Origin: Lachnospiraceae bacterium | GTDB taxonomy: Bacteria > Bacillota > Clostridia > Lachnospirales > Lachnospiraceae | Assembly (NCBI GenBank): GCA_024691425.1 | Contig: JAILNQ010000092.1 | Span: 1-64,000 of the forward strand | Length of the DNA stretch: 64,000 nt | Reading direction: 5' to 3' | Part shown: positions 21,874 through 31,495 of the stretch, one piece after another | Position numbering within the stretch: the first letter of the stretch is position 1 | Layout of the letters: each line of letters starts with the position of its first letter | Notes under the pieces: model-generated | What the model was told of the DNA's origin: nothing | The model's database searches: none | What the model saw: the letters and a program-made list of their open reading frames with translations, nothing else | Program-made: the position numbers and the translations under genes

Positions 21874-22095
21874 ATGGAGAAGTTAGATCTTGATCAGTTA
21901 GGACAGGTTACAGGTGGTTTCGTTTTAAACAACGAAGAAAAGAATGAGATCTGGGTAATAAGGCAGGATGGCAGCAAGATCGTGCCGGCGGCGAATCTTG
22001 AGGAAGCCCAGAAGATCGCAAAGCAGTACAATATCAGTACTACGGTGCTAAACGAGAAGGATTACAAAAAGCACTACGGACGTGATTTTGTGTAA
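21874..22095 (+). CDS. 73-aa peptide with double-glycine leader
   Basis: SD GCGAGG precedes the ATG. Residues 4-16 (LDLDQLGQVTGGF) form a double-glycine leader that matches the first GG-leader peptide of this window at L, QL, V and GG. The remaining ~58 residues are charged (IWVIRQDGSKIVPAANLEEA) and have no cysteine, unlike lantibiotic cores. The gene lies 32 bases after uxuB and may ride on the uronate transcript. Its 3' end overlaps the remnant kinase on the other strand. No maturation or export gene is near. A Nif11-like or bacteriocin-type leader family is possible. Confidence 0.7.
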   Translation: MEKLDLDQLGQVTGGFVLNNEEKNEIWVIRQDGSKIVPAANLEEAQKIAKQYNISTTVLNEKDYKKHYGRDFV

Positions 22096-22678
22096 TATCC
22101 GCATATGATGTGAGGAGACACTTAGGACACTTGATTTTTTCTTTTGGCAGGAATCTTATAAGGGTCTGCTCGAGCTCCTCGCTTTTAACAGGCTTCGAGA
22201 GATAATCATCAAAACCTGCACCGATATATTTTTCCCTGGAACCTATTATCGCATCGGCCGTCATGCAGATAACGGGTGTATCCGGATTGGGCCCGTCCTG
22301 TTGAGCGCGGATATTCCTGAGTACTTCGATCTTGGAAAGGTCGAGGATGTCATTTATGATCGACAGAAGATTATTGCCTGCCCCCTCGATGTTTTCCGAA
22401 TACATGCTGATATTTTCGAAAGCCTCTGAAACACTGGGGCTTTTTTCTTCCTTAGCATCTCTGACCTTCTCACATTCCCTTGACACCATTTCATTAAAGC
22501 CGAGAACCGCGTTGATCGGCGTTCGTATCTCGTGGGACATGTTTGCGAGAAACTGTGATTTTGCCTCGTTCGCGTTATCCGCGATCTGTTTCTGCTCACG
22601 CAGCTGATCCATATATCGGTAGTGTTCGCTGTCATCGGAAAGGGAATAAAGCGTTCCTATCCGGGTATCGTCCTCCAT
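22040..22678 (-). pseudogene. Remnant of a hybrid histidine kinase (internal deletion)
   Basis: The 212-residue frame starts abruptly (no SD, stop just upstream) with a short linker, then an intact HisKA box ([21 protein letters not shown]) split by normal spacing, and runs to [12 protein letters not shown]. There it jumps straight to the end of a receiver domain (TPVICMTADAIIG, then [10 protein letters not shown]). The whole ATPase domain and the phospho-acceptor half of the receiver, some 300 residues, are missing; the junction is near 22322-22327. The sequence matches the intact kinases downstream, so recombination or decay of a family member is likely. A short C-terminal CPKC tail follows. 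It cannot act as a kinase. Confidence 0.75.
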
Positions 22679-23469: not shown

Positions 23470-26163
23470 ATGAAAAAGCGTGTTGCAGATAACAATATGA
23501 TCGGAAGACTGTTCTTCGGGATGCTTCCGGTGCAGATACTCATCTTTGCAATGGGAGGCGTCAACTCCATCGTTGACGGTGCAATGGCGGGGCGTTTCAT
23601 CGGTTCATCCGCCGTAGGTGTCGTCGGTCTTTATTATCCCATGGTCAACATCATAACTGCGGCCGGCTCTGTGCTTCTCGGCGGTTCAACTGTGATCTGC
23701 GGCAGATTCATGGGAAGGGGAGATGTTGAAAAAACCGAGAGGGTATTTTCGTTAGACCTTTCTCTTGCATTTATCATCGGTGCAGTGATCGCGATAGGAA
23801 GCCTTCTGTTTTCAGGCCCTCTAGCCGCGCTTCTAGGAGCGAATGCAGAGCTTAAGGATGATCTTGTCAGATATATTACAGGATATGCGATCGGTATAAT
23901 TCCTATGCTTCTCGCCCAGCAGATATCATCGTTCCTTCAGCTCGAGAGGCAGGACAGAAGAGGCTATATCGGCATCGGAGGCATGACGGTTGCAAACATA
24001 GTTCTTGATACAGTTCTTGTCGCATATCTCGGGATGGGACTGCTCGGACTAGCGCTTGCTACGGCTTTTTCGAACACCATTTATTTTCTGATAACTGTCC
24101 CGTATTATTTTACTGATAAAGCGCAGCTTCATTTCGGAATAAAGAAGATAAACTGGAGACAGACATCCGAGCTGGTCATGACCGGACTTCCCGGTGCGCT
24201 TCTTGTTTTCTGCATAGCTATCAACGGTATCGCGATAAATCATCTGCTTCTTAAGTATGCGGGAGACGACGGGCTTTCCGCCATGTCTGCATTTAATATG
24301 ATCCGCGCCATTCTGATCGCATACTGTTTAGGAAATGGCAATGCAGTGCGCATGCTTGTCAGCGTGTTCGCCGGAGAAGAGGACAGAGGCGCTATCTGCC
24401 GCCTTTTCCGGATACTTGCTACGAAGGCGCTGGCGCTTTCTGCAGCTGTGACCATTGTTGTTCTTCTGCTTTCATCGACACTTGCGGGTATTTTTTTCCC
24501 GGACAGGAGTTCTGATGTCTATGCTCTGGCTCATCAGCTTTTCGTCATATATGCTTTCTGCATCCCTCTGATCCTGATATGTCAGGTCAATACGAACTAT
24601 CTCCAGGCCATGGGACATTCTCTTTTTGTTGATTTTCAGTCTGTATTTGATGGATTATTTTCCAATCTGATCCCTTCCGCCATACTTGCGCCGGTTTTCG
24701 GGGCATTCGGTATATGGATAGCAAATCCTATCGGAATAATACTAACGATCCTCACTGTGCCGGTATACCGTATCATCTGGCTGCGGCGCTTTCCGAGAAC
24801 GCATGATGATTTTATGTTTTTCGCTCCGGATTTCGGTGCTGAACCTGAAAATACCCTGTTTATACACATCCATGATAATGATGAGCTGTCCCTTGCATCT
24901 TCGCGCATCCAGGAATTCTGTGAGGGGCATGAGATGGATAAAAGAGCATCTTACTATTCAGCGCTCTGCGTTGAAGAGCTTGCAGGGAACGTGATCAGAC
25001 ACGGATTCACAGCGGACAGGAAAACTCATTCCCTTAACGTTCTTGCCATCCGGAAAAAGAACGGCGTCACGATCAGGATAAAGGATGACTGCAAGCCGTT
25101 TGATATAAGAGAAATGGCCGATATGGTACGGAAACAGGAAGACAGATATGCCAATATCGGGATCCGCATGGTCTACAGCATTGCCGACGGCATTGATTAC
25201 ATGAATCTTCTCGGGCTTAATATCATAAGCATAAAAATACATGACAGGGATCTGATCAGGCTTACGAAAACCGATTATCTCCTTGAAAAATCACTGGCAG
25301 AACAGGATCCTGACCTTCACAGGAGATTTGCCGACACCGTGTTCATCGTACGGAAGATACTGTCAAGATACAGGCTTCTGTTCCCGGAATATACAGATCA
25401 TTCCGAGCTGCACAGCCTGACCGTGGTCGATTCATGCAACAGGCTTATCGGTTCCGAGAATATAAATCGGCTGAATGCCGATGAGATATATATACTTCTT
25501 GAGGCGGCATATCTGCATGATGCGGGTATGGGCATAAGCGAAAGGGATTACGCTGCTTTCAAAGACCGGTTCAATGAGTCTGAATATTTCCGGGCACATC
25601 CGGATGATACGGCTGCCGATTTTGTGAGGGAGTATCATAATGAGTTCAGCGGCGCGTTCATCGAAAAGTATGCCGGCCTGTTCGATTTTCCCACGAAAGA
25701 GCATACTTTTGCTATCCGTCAAGTTGCGAGGGGGCACCGCAGGACTGACCTTTTTGATGAGAAAGAATATCCTTCGGACTACCATCTTCCAAACGGGAAT
25801 ACTGTCTGTCTGCCTTATCTTTCCGCGATAATCAGGCTGGCTGATGAGATAGATGTCGTTGCATCCCGCAATCCGCTGGTACTGTATGATATCGGTATGC
25901 TCACTGACGAGCGTGAGATCGTTGAGAACAAAAAACTTGCGGCCGTAAAAGAAATGAAGATGACGTCTGATGAGTTCATCCTGACGGCCGAAACTGGTGA
26001 GAAGGATATCGCGGAAAGCCTCGAGAACATGGTCGTCAAAATGCAGAAGACGCTTGATCAATGCAGCAGAGTGATATCAGAAAGAACGAAATACACACTT
26101 TCTCAGAAGAGAGTTAAGCTTGACCTTTCTTTTGCGGTTGATAAAGAGCGTAAATCTATGTAA
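23470..26163 (+). CDS. MATE-family transporter fused to Hsp90-like ATPase and HD domain
   Basis: One frame encodes about 897 residues. Residues 10-450 form a 12-helix MATE exporter (LPVQILIFAMGGVNSIVDG; long hydrophobic helices). Residues about 460-595 form an HATPase domain of the RsbW/anti-sigma kind with an N box (EELAGNVIRHGF), G1 (IKDDCKPFD) and G2 (NIGIRMV). Residues 640-890 form an HD domain with His in HSLTVVD, the HD pair in YLHDAGMG, His in RGHRR and Asp in RLADEIDV. Transport, ATP-driven switching and a phosphohydrolase may thus be coupled; this is inference. The frame extends four codons upstream to ATG 23458, but that ATG overlaps the -10 box. Neither start has an SD. The FIST-type kinase follows 47 bases later. 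Confidence 0.85.
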   Translation: MKKRVADNNMIGRLFFGMLPVQILIFAMGGVNSIVDGAMAGRFIGSSAVGVVGLYYPMVNIITAAGSVLLGGSTVICGRFMGRGDVEKTERVFSLDLSLAFIIGAVIAIGSLLFSGPLAALLGANAELKDDLVRYITGYAIGIIPMLLAQQISSFLQLERQDRRGYIGIGGMTVANIVLDTVLVAYLGMGLLGLALATAFSNTIYFLITVPYYFTDKAQLHFGIKKINWRQTSELVMTGLPGALLVFCIAINGIAINHLLLKYAGDDGLSAMSAFNMIRAILIAYCLGNGNAVRMLVSVFAGEEDRGAICRLFRILATKALALSAAVTIVVLLLSSTLAGIFFPDRSSDVYALAHQLFVIYAFCIPLILICQVNTNYLQAMGHSLFVDFQSVFDGLFSNLIPSAILAPVFGAFGIWIANPIGIILTILTVPVYRIIWLRRFPRTHDDFMFFAPDFGAEPENTLFIHIHDNDELSLASSRIQEFCEGHEMDKRASYYSALCVEELAGNVIRHGFTADRKTHSLNVLAIRKKNGVTIRIKDDCKPFDIREMADMVRKQEDRYANIGIRMVYSIADGIDYMNLLGLNIISIKIHDRDLIRLTKTDYLLEKSLAEQDPDLHRRFADTVFIVRKILSRYRLLFPEYTDHSELHSLTVVDSCNRLIGSENINRLNADEIYILLEAAYLHDAGMGISERDYAAFKDRFNESEYFRAHPDDTAADFVREYHNEFSGAFIEKYAGLFDFPTKEHTFAIRQVARGHRRTDLFDEKEYPSDYHLPNGNTVCLPYLSAIIRLADEIDVVASRNPLVLYDIGMLTDEREIVENKKLAAVKEMKMTSDEFILTAETGEKDIAESLENMVVKMQKTLDQCSRVISERTKYTLSQKRVKLDLSFAVDKERKSM

Positions 26164-26210: not shown

Positions 26211-28778
26211 ATGATTCAGAAGAAGTTTCTATGCAAAGATATGGCAGCCGCCAAAGAGGCAGTTTCCGAGCTTTCAAAAATCATATCGGACAACAGTCAT
26301 AGATCAGCGCTCATCACTTTCTATGAAGCCGGTTTATCGAGGCAGGATGTCGTATGCCTTCTTGATGAGATCAAGGGCTATGGCCATACGGATCTGCAGA
26401 TTGCAGGCATAACCCTTCCGATCATCGCAGAGCTTCTGCCTGAGGGATCTGGCATACTTCTTAATCTGGTACTTACCGAGAAAGCCGATATCGAAGTTGT
26501 CGGAATTCCATGCCATCCGGGGGAGGAAGCAGAGGCCGCCGGAAAGCTCAGGGGCATTCTGGATACGCATGATGCTCTGAAAGCCGTAGAGCTGTTCGGA
26601 AGCCGCATGGCATTTGATACGACCGCTTTCATGGAACAGGCCATGGAAGGTCATGAAGATGCGGTACTGTTCGGCACGTCCACAATACGCGGCCTCGCGC
26701 AGAAAGTTTCCGTTGAGGAAAGCGAAAACTCCATAGAACTGGAAAAATCCGAATCCGATGCAGAATTTAACGAGATCATTGTCGGGGGCGATATAATAAA
26801 CGACGGGTTTGCGGCGGTTCTGTTTTCGGGCAACAGCCTTAACGTGTGTGCAGATTACGCGCTCGGCTGGAATCCTGTCGGACGCAGGCTTCCTCTCGTT
26901 CTCGGCAAGAACCCGGTCAAGGGCGAGACCGTGGTTGAAAAGATCAATGATCTTCCTGCGGTGGATATATACAGAGAATATCTCGGAGTTTATCCCGATT
27001 CATTTTTCATAAGCAATATATGCGAGTTCCCGTTCGTGGTTGAGCGTGACGGCATAAACATATGCATGGTTCCGATGGACTGCGGAAAAGACGGCGAGCT
27101 GTACTTCATGATGACTCTGAAAGAGGATGAAATGCTCCGATTTACTTTCGCTTCACATGATGAAGTGCTGTACGCGAGCCGCCGGACATTGGAAGATATG
27201 GAAGCTTTCGCTCCTGAAGCTCTGTTTCTGACGCTGTGCGGAAACCGTATCAACTTCCTGAAGGAAGATGCGCACATCGAGTGGGATGAATTCAGCTCAG
27301 TTGCACCCGATTTTGCCCTTATGCATGGCGCATGCGAGCTTTATTATCATAACGGAAAAGGCGGGATACTCAACAGCGCACACCTTGCAGTCGGTTTCCG
27401 TGAAGGAGACGCATCAAAGAACGATGGCGGATATTCGCATCCTTCTCTCGAGAGCCTGCGCCACGGACGTCCGCTTTCTCTTTCGGACAGAATGTCCACT
27501 TTCCTGGGCAAGATAACGAATGAGCTTCTTGACATTGCATCAGAGGCAAGAGAAGCCAATAATGCCAAATCGGCATTCCTGTCGCATATGTCCCATGAGA
27601 TACGCACACCGATAAATGCGATCCTCGGCATGGATGAGATGATCCTCCAGGAGAGTAAGGAAGAAGGGACGCTTGATTATGCGTCAAGCATCCGCTCGGC
27701 AGGCAACAACCTTCTCGGTATAGTGAATGATATTCTCGACTTCTCGAAGATAGAAGCCGGAAAGATGAGCATCGTTCCGGTTGAATACGGGCTCACCTCG
27801 ATCATAAACGATCTTTATAACGTGGTGCGGCTCCGTGCAGAGGATAAAGGTCTCAAGGTTAAGCTCGATATTGATCCGTCTCTGCCTTCCGTTCTTTTAG
27901 GAGATGTGACGCGCATAAGGCAGGTTATAACTAATCTGCTGTCTAATGCCGTCAAATATACGGAAAAAGGAGAGGTTACGCTCTCAATAGGAAGGGCGCC
28001 GATAAACGCCGAAGATCATAAGGAAGAAATCAGTAAAGCATGTCCGGGAACTGTCCCGGAGCATTTGATAAGGCTCAAGGTATCCGTAAAGGATACCGGA
28101 ATCGGAATAAAGCCCGAGGACATGGACAGGCTTTTTGAGGAATACGAGCGTTTTGACGAAAAACGCAATTTCTCTGTTGAAGGAACGGGACTCGGTATTT
28201 CGATAACGAGTGAGCTGCTGGACCTCATGGGGAGCAGGCTTTTGGTGGAAAGCACATACGGGGAGGGCTCTGATTTCGGATTCGAGCTGATGCAGGGTGT
28301 TGTGAATTCTGAAGAGGTCGGAGATAAGAGCAAGTGGTTCAAAAAACCCGCAGGCAGAAAGCAGAGAATAGCCTTTACCGCAGAGGATGCGCATATACTC
28401 GTGGTTGATGATTCCGCAACGAATCTGTCCGTAATGACGAGTCTTCTCAAGAACACAAAGATAAAAACCGATACGGCTTCATCGGGGAAAGAAGCCCTTG
28501 AGCTCGTCAAAAAGAATGCTTATGATGTCATATTCCTTGACCATCTCATGCCGGAGCTGGACGGTCCTGAGACGCTGAAGAAGATGAAGGAGCTTCCTGA
28601 CAACATGTCAGCAGATGCGCCTGTCATCTCGCTTACGGCCAATGTACTTTCGGGAGCAAGAGATGAGTATATCCTTGCAGGGTATAATGATTATCTGTCC
28701 AAGCCGATCAAACTGAAGGAACTGGAGGATATGCTGTTCTGCTATATTCCTCCGGAGAAGATAAGAACTGTGCAGTAA
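26211..28778 (+). CDS. Hybrid histidine kinase with FIST sensor domain
   Basis: An 855-residue soluble protein without membrane helices. Residues 1-395 resemble the FIST N and C sensory domains (ALFLTLCGNRINF and LMHGACELYYHNGKGGI fit the FIST_C pattern), which are thought to bind small ligands such as amino acids. A HisKA box follows ([13 protein letters not shown], His near 460), then HATPase (about 555-700) and a receiver (AHILVVDD near 727, acceptor Asp near 776 in FLDHLMPELDG). No Hpt is attached, so phosphate must pass to a separate Hpt or return to the kinase. The start is an ATG 47 bases after the MATE fusion, suggesting joint expression. Confidence 0.85.
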   Translation: MIQKKFLCKDMAAAKEAVSELSKIISDNSHRSALITFYEAGLSRQDVVCLLDEIKGYGHTDLQIAGITLPIIAELLPEGSGILLNLVLTEKADIEVVGIPCHPGEEAEAAGKLRGILDTHDALKAVELFGSRMAFDTTAFMEQAMEGHEDAVLFGTSTIRGLAQKVSVEESENSIELEKSESDAEFNEIIVGGDIINDGFAAVLFSGNSLNVCADYALGWNPVGRRLPLVLGKNPVKGETVVEKINDLPAVDIYREYLGVYPDSFFISNICEFPFVVERDGINICMVPMDCGKDGELYFMMTLKEDEMLRFTFASHDEVLYASRRTLEDMEAFAPEALFLTLCGNRINFLKEDAHIEWDEFSSVAPDFALMHGACELYYHNGKGGILNSAHLAVGFREGDASKNDGGYSHPSLESLRHGRPLSLSDRMSTFLGKITNELLDIASEAREANNAKSAFLSHMSHEIRTPINAILGMDEMILQESKEEGTLDYASSIRSAGNNLLGIVNDILDFSKIEAGKMSIVPVEYGLTSIINDLYNVVRLRAEDKGLKVKLDIDPSLPSVLLGDVTRIRQVITNLLSNAVKYTEKGEVTLSIGRAPINAEDHKEEISKACPGTVPEHLIRLKVSVKDTGIGIKPEDMDRLFEEYERFDEKRNFSVEGTGLGISITSELLDLMGSRLLVESTYGEGSDFGFELMQGVVNSEEVGDKSKWFKKPAGRKQRIAFTAEDAHILVVDDSATNLSVMTSLLKNTKIKTDTASSGKEALELVKKNAYDVIFLDHLMPELDGPETLKKMKELPDNMSADAPVISLTANVLSGARDEYILAGYNDYLSKPIKLKELEDMLFCYIPPEKIRTVQ

Positions 28779-29344: not shown

Positions 29345-31495
29345 ATGCTTCCCTATAAGGACAGAATGAAAAAAATCATAGATTTTCTTTTCCCGACAGG
29401 CGGTGATATCAGGGCAAAGGTTTTCGACATACTGGCTAAATGCGGAGTTATCGTCTGCATTATTTCGGCTGTAAACTGCCTGATAGTTGAGTCTGAAGGT
29501 TACCAGAGCTTCATGTGGAGCATAGTCGGAGCGATCATATCACTCATCCTTATGATAACTACACGTAAGACAGGGAAATACAGATCTGCGATGATACTTA
29601 CCATACTGCTTATCTTCTTCGGACTGTTTTCTTTTCTGTTCTTCACCGGCGGCGGATATCATAGCGGTATGCCGTTTTTCTTTGTTTTTGCGGTCGTTTT
29701 CACGGCCTTCATGCTCGACGGGATAATCATGCCTGTTTTCGTAGTGACAGAACTGTTATGGTATACGATACTTATGCTCTGGGCACGGCATGTACCGGGT
29801 TCTGTCAAATATGAGTATGATGAGTTTGGTTATTTTTTCGACATATGGTTTGACATGATCATCGTATCGCTCAGCGTTGCGATCACTATGTATCTGCAGA
29901 TAAGAGTATACAGGAAGAAGGAAAAAGAGCTCAGCGTTGCGATCCAGGAGGCGGAGGAAGCAAACAGGGCAAAGAGCGATTTCCTTGCTAAGATGAGCCA
30001 TGACATAAGGACGCCTCTTAACACGATCATGGCGATGAACGAGATGATCGTATCGAACACGTCATCCGCCAGGATCAGAGGATGGGTAAACGATAGCAAC
30101 GTTTCGGGGCGCATACTTCTTTCGCTTATTGATGACATGCTCGATCTTACGAAGATAGAGGCAGGAAAGATGGAGCTGCTTTCGGAACCGTGGAAAACAG
30201 ACGTGCTGTTCCCGGAAACCGCAAGGTTATGGAAGCCGCAGGCGCAGAAGGCAGGACTTGATTTCGGATTCGAGATGGACAAGGCTGTGCCTCCTGTACT
30301 GTACGGAGATGAGGGTGTTATAAGGAAGGTAACCAACAATCTGCTCAGCAACTCGGTGAAATACACTAAGCATGGCGGAGTAAATCTTTCTGTCAGCTGG
30401 GACGGCTGCCTCCAGATAACTGTTAAAGACACGGGTATCGGCATTGCGCCCGAGCACCTTGAAACGATATTCAACCCGTTTGACAGAGGCGTGCAGGACA
30501 TATACCGCGAAACGAGCGGGAGCGGCCTGGGGCTTGCGATAGTAAAAGAGCTGGTAGATGCAATGGACGGAACGATCAGCTGTCATAGCGTTCTTGACGA
30601 AGGAACAGAGTTTATAGTCAGACTTCCGCTTGAAATATATAAAGGTGAAAATCCTCTGGCAGAAACGCAAGTGGATGTTCAGGCTCAGACCGAGACGCAG
30701 AAGCGATTTGTTGCACCTAATGCGCGTATCTTAGTCGTAGATGATAATTCGTTCAATCGTAAGGTTATCGAGGAATTCCTCGAACCGGCTCTCGTGCAGC
30801 TTGATGAGGTAGAGAGCGGATACGAAGCTCTTGAGATGATAGATATAAAAGAATACGATCTCATCATCATGGATCTTCGCATGCCCAAGATGGACGGTGT
30901 CGAGACTCTCGAACGCATAAAGAAGGATTATCCTGATTTTAACACTCCTGTAGTTGTATTTACGGCGGATATCATTAACGGCGTGGAACAGTCTCTTCTC
31001 GAAAAAGGTTTTGCAGGCTTTCTTGCAAAGCCGGTCAGCTCGCAGAAGATACTTGATACGATAAAGAGATTCGTTCCGGATAAAGTCATTACGATCGAGA
31101 CTGAACGTGAGAACGACATAACGCTTTCCGATATCGAAAACTATCAGGACATGCTCATGCCTTACGGTATCGATCTTAAGCTCGCGCTTGAGAACAATGC
31201 CGCTAACACAGATGAGTTCATAACAAGAGCGAGAATGTTCGAACAGTATGCCGAAGAGGGAATCGGCAAACTTAAAGATCCAGGCTCGAGAGAGGAGTAT
31301 TATATCAACGTACATTCGCTCAAGTCCGTTGCCTGGGGCATAGGAGCATTTCTCTTGGCAAGGCTTTCGGAAACTGTTGAATACAGGAAAGATGAGAGAT
31401 TTTCAGAAGGCATCAATCCTTCAATAATAGAAGAATACGAGAGGGTACGCCAAGGCCTTCTCATTTTCAGAAAAGAAGTCGAGCGGGAAATTTAA
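29345..31495 (+). CDS. Membrane hybrid histidine kinase with receiver and Hpt
   Basis: A 716-residue protein. The N-terminal ~195 residues hold about six membrane helices with little outside the membrane. A HisKA box (MSHDIRTPLNTIM, His near 218), HATPase (about 325-435; DTGIGI and GSGLGL), a receiver (ARILVVDD near 460, Asp near 508 in IIMDLRMPKMDG) and an Hpt domain (VHSLKSVAWGIGA, His near 656) follow, so all relay parts are on one chain. The H box has Asp after His (HD) where paralogues here have HE. SD GGAGGG. It heads a group with an SH3 lipoprotein, a response regulator and another lipoprotein. Confidence 0.92.
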   Translation: MLPYKDRMKKIIDFLFPTGGDIRAKVFDILAKCGVIVCIISAVNCLIVESEGYQSFMWSIVGAIISLILMITTRKTGKYRSAMILTILLIFFGLFSFLFFTGGGYHSGMPFFFVFAVVFTAFMLDGIIMPVFVVTELLWYTILMLWARHVPGSVKYEYDEFGYFFDIWFDMIIVSLSVAITMYLQIRVYRKKEKELSVAIQEAEEANRAKSDFLAKMSHDIRTPLNTIMAMNEMIVSNTSSARIRGWVNDSNVSGRILLSLIDDMLDLTKIEAGKMELLSEPWKTDVLFPETARLWKPQAQKAGLDFGFEMDKAVPPVLYGDEGVIRKVTNNLLSNSVKYTKHGGVNLSVSWDGCLQITVKDTGIGIAPEHLETIFNPFDRGVQDIYRETSGSGLGLAIVKELVDAMDGTISCHSVLDEGTEFIVRLPLEIYKGENPLAETQVDVQAQTETQKRFVAPNARILVVDDNSFNRKVIEEFLEPALVQLDEVESGYEALEMIDIKEYDLIIMDLRMPKMDGVETLERIKKDYPDFNTPVVVFTADIINGVEQSLLEKGFAGFLAKPVSSQKILDTIKRFVPDKVITIETERENDITLSDIENYQDMLMPYGIDLKLALENNAANTDEFITRARMFEQYAEEGIGKLKDPGSREEYYINVHSLKSVAWGIGAFLLARLSETVEYRKDERFSEGINPSIIEEYERVRQGLLIFRKEVEREI

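Follow-up and report, generated by a model that had tools for sequence, protein, structure and literature searches.

A transporter, an ATPase and an HD domain in one chain

The stretch analysed here (the window) comprises 64,000 nucleotides of contig JAILNQ010000092.1 from a Lachnospiraceae bacterium (assembly GCA_024691425.1) and contains a gene that joins a MATE transporter, a HATPase domain and an HD domain in a single open reading frame (ORF; Table 1). Translation from the second in-frame ATG, at 23470, which the preliminary description took as the start, would give an alternative product of 897 aa. MatE, HATPase_c_2 and HD-CE (PF24391) all score above their curated Pfam cut-offs, and the preliminary description of this DNA, made from the letters alone, had thus named the three parts correctly as exporter, ATPase and HD domain. 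By these tests the protein belongs to the MATE and HD-CE families, while its ATPase is RsbW/SpoIIAB-like by fold, with an altered G1 box, and is not an Hsp90. The gene carries the only HD-CE match of its genome (127 contigs, 2.56 Mb; completeness 83.8%).

Table 1 Coordinates of the fusion gene, its domains and motifs, and the hybrid kinases of the window
Feature	Position	Strand	Basis
MATE-HATPase-HD fusion gene, 901 aa	23458..26163	+	ORF, Pfam; same architecture in 27 named loci
MATE transporter domain, residues ~10-450	23485..24807	+	Pfam MatE, TIGR00797, phmmer BH2163 / PfMATE
Putative N-lobe cation site D40, N180, D184, T202	23575..24063	+	phmmer alignment with PfMATE chain
RsbW/SpoIIAB-type HATPase domain, residues ~455-596	24820..25245	+	Pfam HATPase_c_2; Foldseek SpoIIAB 1l0o/1til, RsbW 6m37
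N box E506-E507-x3-N511	24973..24990	+	E506, E507, N511 invariant 28/28
Modified G1 box D543-D-C-K-P-F548	25084..25101	+	D543, D544, C545, F548 invariant 28/28
HD-CE phosphohydrolase domain, residues ~606-890	25273..26127	+	Pfam PF24391; AlphaFold2 model
Likely metal-site residues H648, H652, H687-D688, H760, D796	25399..25845	+	Invariant 74/74; metal role inferred from HD superfamily
Hybrid kinases	26211, 29345, 36500, 38881		

Recurrence and origin of the fusion

An initial contig scan with the fusion protein alone as query returned no match, and relatives were collected with the HD-CE alignment A2 against one genome per species. Among 84,980 species this gave 216 relatives, the best 79 of which, by similarity to the query, were taken as named (L) loci; all counts out of 81 below refer to the short HD-CE domains of these 79 loci, in which close relatives are over-represented since similarity governed the choice. 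By title most of the loci belong to Lachnospiraceae, Butyrivibrio, Clostridiales and further Bacillota, in many cases of ruminant origin, and two are titled as Spirochaetes. HD-CE is fused to MATE-HATPase in 27 of the 81 cases, and a further 13 have a same-strand MATE-HATPase within 400 bp (in 11 cases this is a separate gene; the other 2 are HD-CE copies in tandem with a fused gene); one more stands beside a MATE frame cut by a contig end. An assembly artefact can be rejected, as the same architecture recurs in 27 named loci, three of which are titled as Butyrivibrio strains (CB08, AC2005 and XPD2002) and not as metagenome-assembled genomes.

Genomes surveyed separately (G numbers) appear in seven cases to be the same as those of named loci (G009 = L119, G030 = L112, G033 = L124, G015 = L136, G153 = L143, G154 = L134 and G380 = L148). 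Within the genus, fusions at 61-66% identity occur in G009 and G030 and, interrupted by the end of its contig, in G033; a MATE-through-HATPase match is present in at least 27 of 37 genomes and an HD-CE match over the cut-off in only 7. Across the family, HD-CE was matched in 76 of 397 genomes, 37 of them over the cut-off, and neighbourhoods were read at 29 fetched loci only. Eight of these 29, all from other genera, hold an HD-CE close to that of the window: one is fused (G154, 55% identity), three lie beside a MATE-HATPase gene (G153, G380, G209), one forms a STAS-HATPase-HD-CE row (G349) and three have neither partner (G155, G130, G306). Phylum-wide, profile A2 matched 7 of 397 other genomes, the best at 72 bits over part of the profile. 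The soluble part of the protein found no match in 50,697 phage records, and a plasmid search gave two distant matches.

The preliminary description had held that orthologues encoded as separate genes would speak against a true fusion. The outcome is mixed. Relatives of this kind exist (G015/L136, G153/L143, G380/L148, G209/L100, L137, L146 and L173-L175), but their genes adjoin each other, either overlapping or with a gap of a few to about twenty bases, and this proximity makes the functional link between the parts stronger.

A tree of 86 HD-CE domains (the 81, that of the window and four family members), rooted by midpoint only, gathers all 28 fused sequences, that of the window among them, into a single clade of 33 members (100/99), together with three detached copies (L107, nearest to that of the window, L111 and L116) and the two tandem copies. 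The adjacent-gene state is dispersed across the tree, with 14 changes against a shuffled mean of 14.1. One fusion of a neighbouring gene pair followed by later detachments would be the simplest history under this midpoint root, and a single origin from such a pair is probable, HD-CE beside a separate MATE-HATPase gene being the likely pre-fusion state. Fission as the origin of the split genes of G015 is not favoured, because its HD-CE falls outside the fused clade.

Conserved features of the three domains

The HD-CE match spans residues 642-869 at 130.6 bits (E 1.1e-37, cut-off 27). In alignment A4, which combines 73 of the 81 domains with the window (74 sequences, 8 close fused ones being left out), H648, H652, H687, D688, H727, H760, R761, D796 and E797 are invariant, so that the H...HD...H...D set proposed from the letters is indeed complete, and the domain looks intact. 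Its AlphaFold2 model (predicted local distance difference test, pLDDT, 89; predicted template-modelling score, pTM, 0.89) matched the HD part of PPX best in Foldseek (E 3.9e-4, TM score to the query 0.39), and also PPX/GppA and PDE4. A sequence profile of HD-CE weakly matched PDE10A and PDEB1 (best E 0.016, to PDE10A); a PDB sequence search with the HD part of the window alone found no match, and profile A3 gave nothing useful. Taken together, fold and profile likeness suggest phosphate-messenger chemistry without choosing a substrate. The name HD-CE was not found in use in the literature searched.

HATPase_c_2 is matched over residues 474-581 at 36.9 bits (cut-off 27.4). Foldseek with a predicted model of residues 455-901, built from 28 sequences (pLDDT 81.5), gave SpoIIAB (1l0o, E 1.8e-5) and RsbW (6m37, E 1.5e-4) among its best matches; the matched complexes include SpoIIAB with sigma-F or SpoIIAA, UsfX-RsfB, RsbW-RsbV and, at E 0.04, SiaB-SiaC. 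No Hsp90-named entry appears among the 50 matches listed of 708, where SpoIIAB, RsbW, histidine kinases and others are present. The earlier label of an Hsp90-like ATPase stands at the superfamily level only; on the matches listed, membership of Hsp90 is rejected, and by its modelled fold the domain is of the anti-sigma (SpoIIAB/RsbW) type. Of the N, G1 and G2 boxes read by the first description, the N box and the G2 glycine are present, E506, E507, N511, D543 and G568 being invariant in all 28 fused sequences, whereas the usual glycine of the G1 DxG motif is replaced by cysteine (D543-D544-C545) in 28/28. The lid is also short. ATP binding is likely and phosphotransfer uncertain.

The anti-sigma fold raises the question of whether the protein could be a membrane-tethered true anti-sigma factor that holds an extracytoplasmic function (ECF)-type sigma factor, with the HD domain only tuning it. 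The Foldseek matches include SpoIIAB-sigmaF and sigF-anti-sigma complexes, and at L130 an ECF-like sigma-70 r2/r4 gene has 4 bp in common with the start of the fusion. This is the only locus with a sigma gene among the neighbours scanned with Pfam, however, and the invariance of the HD-CE catalytic residues argues that the enzyme matters; we consider such a role improbable.

In the MATE half, MatE is matched in two stretches at 97.9 bits (cut-off 24.9), and TIGR00797 matE (NCBIfam), at 112.9 bits, falls short of its cut-off (147.4). With phmmer it matched BH2163 (E 5.5e-18) and the PF0708/PfMATE structures (E ~1.5e-9), and in the latter alignment D40, N180, D184 and T202 correspond to D41, N180, D184 and T202 of the PfMATE chain, which we take to be its cation site. 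As these positions are kept in the fused proteins (D40 in 25/27, N180 in 28/28, D184 in 27/28 and T202 in 26/28), the MATE half may still bind ions and move. Separately, the segment at 23557-24783 matches the phage protein family phrog_6241 (function unassigned; E 1.8e-40).

STAS genes repeatedly accompany HD-CE

A gene for a STAS (RsbV-like) protein lies within 400 bp of 18 of the 81 HD-CE domains, 11 times on the same strand and 7 times convergently; one of the 18 is fused and one also has a MATE-HATPase. Set against the ORFs within 400 bp of HD-CE (18 versus 162) and the other ORFs (7 versus ~698), this corresponds to an odds ratio of 12 (Fisher p 6e-9), a p value that is inflated because the loci are related and that rests on a crude background, the denominators being called ORFs and the STAS matches stop-to-stop frames. 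The tree forces at least four changes of the STAS label, which covers 16 rows without a fusion or MATE-HATPase neighbour. All 18 nearby STAS proteins carry an SSAG or SSSG motif, whose serine pair is presumably the phosphosite, as in RsbV and SpoIIAA.

Several gene orders place these parts side by side: MATE-HATPase, HD-CE, STAS at L146; STAS, soluble HATPase_c_2, HD-CE at L104; and SpoIIE-HATPase, STAS, a GH3 family gene, MATE-HATPase, HD-CE at L098/L143, where the GH3 gene sits between the STAS and MATE-HATPase genes. HD-CE followed by STAS on one strand and convergent pairs also occur, and at L134/L097 a convergent gene for STAS fused to an APH-like kinase adjoins the fusion. In the genome of the window, contigs other than this one carry two STAS and SpoIIE genes. 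STAS-APH genes are also found at L187 (3455-6260, on contig C116 of this genome), L188, L189 and L192, and adjoin an SpoIIE phosphatase gene in this genome and in G015 (L188); a STAS-APH protein is a possible partner of the fusion.

A proposed partner-switching receptor

The split relatives, standing beside MATE-HATPase or anti-sigma antagonist genes, suggest a transporter-based sensor drawn from a partner-switching circuit, and we see an even chance that the fusion is a one-chain, membrane-bound partner-switching receptor whose output is a STAS-controlled HD phosphohydrolase. In the scheme that we infer, which extends to MATE sensing, kinase action, STAS binding and the HD substrate, the MATE half would be a transceptor, a sensor resembling a transporter: ions or a substrate would drive its conformational changes, and these would fix the state of the RsbW/SpoIIAB-type domain joined to it. 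The latter domain would bind, and probably phosphorylate, a free STAS (RsbV-like) protein whose gene lies elsewhere, a modification that an SpoIIE/PP2C phosphatase would reverse. The STAS protein in turn would control HD-CE, here taken as a metal-dependent phosphohydrolase whose target would be a nucleotide-like phosphate messenger, a step modelled on the control of diguanylate cyclases by HsbA-HsbD and SiaC-SiaD in Pseudomonas. Also in its favour count the sigma-70 gene that overlaps the fusion at L130 and the retained cation-site residues of the MATE half. The complete version, in which a MATE transceptor senses a gradient of ions or small molecules and uses the RsbW-type domain and STAS to toggle a messenger-degrading HD enzyme built into the same polypeptide, we put forward more tentatively.

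A number of observations weigh against this proposal. The window yielded no STAS gene, and none lies within 400 bp at 26 of the 27 fused named loci. Of the 18 HD-CE genes linked to STAS, 16 lack an adjoining MATE-HATPase, and no STAS, SpoIIE or HD-CE match was found in the flanks read of all 13 MATE-HATPase frames that lack HD-CE; 24 of the 81 HD-CE domains have neither a fusion nor MATE-HATPase or STAS nearby. The copy nearest to that of the window, at L107, is detached and stands after a hybrid histidine kinase and a receiver gene. Phosphotransfer may have been lost, given the G1 cysteine and a short G2 lid, and the Foldseek matches of HD-CE are weak (TM score to the query 0.28-0.39 for PPX entries). 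The counts of 13/13, 16/18 and 26/27 indicate that the STAS link follows HD-CE and not the transporter-ATPase, and we therefore place STAS between the kinase domain and the HD enzyme, as in SiaB-SiaC-SiaD and HsbR-HsbA-HsbD.

Neighbouring genes and alternative roles

The genes around HD-CE also bear on other roles for the protein; because the explanations overlap, the probabilities that we attach to them sum to more than one. HD-CE could work in cyclic-nucleotide, (p)ppGpp or polyphosphate turnover without STAS, its neighbourhoods being shared signalling islands, a reading that coincides with the partner-switching proposal in the chemistry of the HD enzyme. Besides the PPX, PPX/GppA, PDE4 and PDE10A/PDEB1 matches described above, it can call on a gene for PPK2 polyphosphate kinase immediately preceding HD-CE at L140 (5781-8192), the best fold matches of HD-CE being exopolyphosphatases, and on GGDEF genes, of which 5 loci have one no more than 400 bp from HD-CE and 5 have one farther away, a weak linkage (p 0.025). 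In addition, the genome of the window holds a second MATE-HATPase, without HD, on contig C22 (L060 6768-14392), in the order FecR-domain gene, MATE-HATPase, CHASE2-nucleotide cyclase and HD_5 (HD-GYP-like) gene, with the MATE-HATPase and cyclase genes overlapping by 4 bp. Each of these links is weak or single, whereas the STAS linkage is stronger, and we think turnover without STAS somewhat unlikely.

The preliminary description had suggested that the exporter may be gated by, or may export, the product of a nucleotide-linked reaction. The MATE half would then be a working exporter with two regulators, an ATPase that gates transport and an HD enzyme that makes or destroys either an allosteric nucleotide or the compound to be exported. 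Conservation of the cation-site residues as in PfMATE fits this, as does a nucleobase permease gene (Xan_ur_permease) followed by HD-CE and STAS in a row at L149 and L184, with like-sized and like-placed ORFs at L153 and L164, which means that HD-CE may serve transporters generally. No conserved neighbour of the fused gene was found beyond groups of four close loci, however, and some copies sit among housekeeping genes. By Pfam, the fusion of Butyrivibrio L109 lies between def (peptide deformylase) and fmt (Met-tRNA formyltransferase), with priA before and rsmB after, and ORFs homologous to these follow one another likewise in L123, L131 and L132; the fusion of L122 precedes lepA (homologous ORFs in L118, L127 and L129), and that of L121 follows queA. 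We regard export or gating by a product as unlikely and prefer a transporter-as-sensor role for the MATE half.

The pairing of ATPase and HD domain had also been likened to signalling and conflict proteins. This recalls the long HD-CE proteins, whose open frames are mostly ~1040-1170 aa and two of which, when scanned, carry the Hsp90-like HATPase_c_3 (one above and one below the Pfam cut-off), but the ATPase of the fusion is of the RsbW/SpoIIAB type. A defence protein in which a GHKL ATPase releases or activates an HD-CE effector upon infection would accord with a distant HD-CE gene followed by that of an ORC-CDC6-like ATPase (L052 9380-13255, possibly a conflict locus). PADLOC weakly matched the fusion to RT_UG24 (E 1.4e-5 for the whole protein, 3.6e-7 for the HD part), and the HD-CE of L104 to RT_UG24 (5e-9) and Cas3-HD (1.3e-6). 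Against it, eight of nine window neighbours had no PADLOC match and the hybrid kinase at 29345 matched only weakly, and to this are added the housekeeping surroundings of some fused copies and the unmatched soluble part in phage records. The RsbW/SpoIIAB-type ATPase and the STAS genes near HD-CE point to partner-switching signalling rather than defence, which we judge quite improbable here.

The next gene in the window, 47 bp past the fusion (26211-28778, + strand), encodes a FIST_C sensor fused to a HisKA-HATPase-receiver hybrid kinase, so the fusion does stand at the head of a kinase array as first described. At none of the remaining 27 fused loci, a number of them truncated by the end of a contig, was a homologue covering >60% of this kinase found; a partnership is therefore not supported, and the link looks incidental. 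Among the window neighbours compared, only the kinase ORFs at 22040-22678 and 29345-31495 have a homologue at another fused locus, L108. The former, on the minus strand, joins a HisKA to the second half of a receiver domain without a HATPase and looks like a deletion remnant of a hybrid kinase.

Relation to known systems

The best-known examples of partner switching involve the sigma factors of sporulation and stress; for kinases fused to a transporter, they are the CbrA-type proteins. The MATE-HATPase-HD plan is a real and recurrent architecture made of known parts; as the preliminary description had suspected, no account of it was found in the literature searched, nor in the portion of PMC8195603 consulted. 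In function it would come closest to a transceptor coupled to a partner switch.

In the consulted part of PMC13022988, CbrA is a transceptor with a transporter domain and a cytoplasmic GHKL kinase in one chain. The fusion resembles CbrA and the SLC5-STAC histidine kinases, as far as these sources describe them, in this single-chain arrangement, and differs in having MATE in place of SLC5, an RsbW/SpoIIAB ATPase without HisKA, and an HD hydrolase. With the SpoIIAB/RsbW anti-sigma kinases it shares the fold, the N box and, in the wider module, a link to RsbV-like STAS genes; unlike them, it is tethered to a membrane transporter, has a cysteine for the G1 glycine, and its output appears to be an HD enzyme. 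In Pseudomonas, according to the parts of the reports consulted, diguanylate cyclases are controlled by phospho-regulated STAS or STAS-like switch proteins in HsbA-HsbD (PMC6482189) and SiaC-SiaD (PMC8457831). HsbR-HsbA-HsbD and SiaABCD, as portrayed there, likewise set a STAS or STAS-like partner switch over a second-messenger enzyme, but have cyclase outputs, whereas here the output has a hydrolase fold and shares a chain with the kinase domain.

The two long PF24391 proteins scanned likewise combine HD-CE with a GHKL ATPase in a single chain, though in reversed order, with HATPase_c_3 and with no transporter domain found. The antiporters BH2163 and PfMATE share the fold family and cation-site residues of the MATE half, to which the fusion adds two cytoplasmic domains. 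A group of ruminant-gut bacteria seems to have merged partner switching with the transporter-fused kinase and attached an HD enzyme. The HD-CE domain thereby gains a testable partner in STAS proteins, and MATE proteins gain a possible sensing role.

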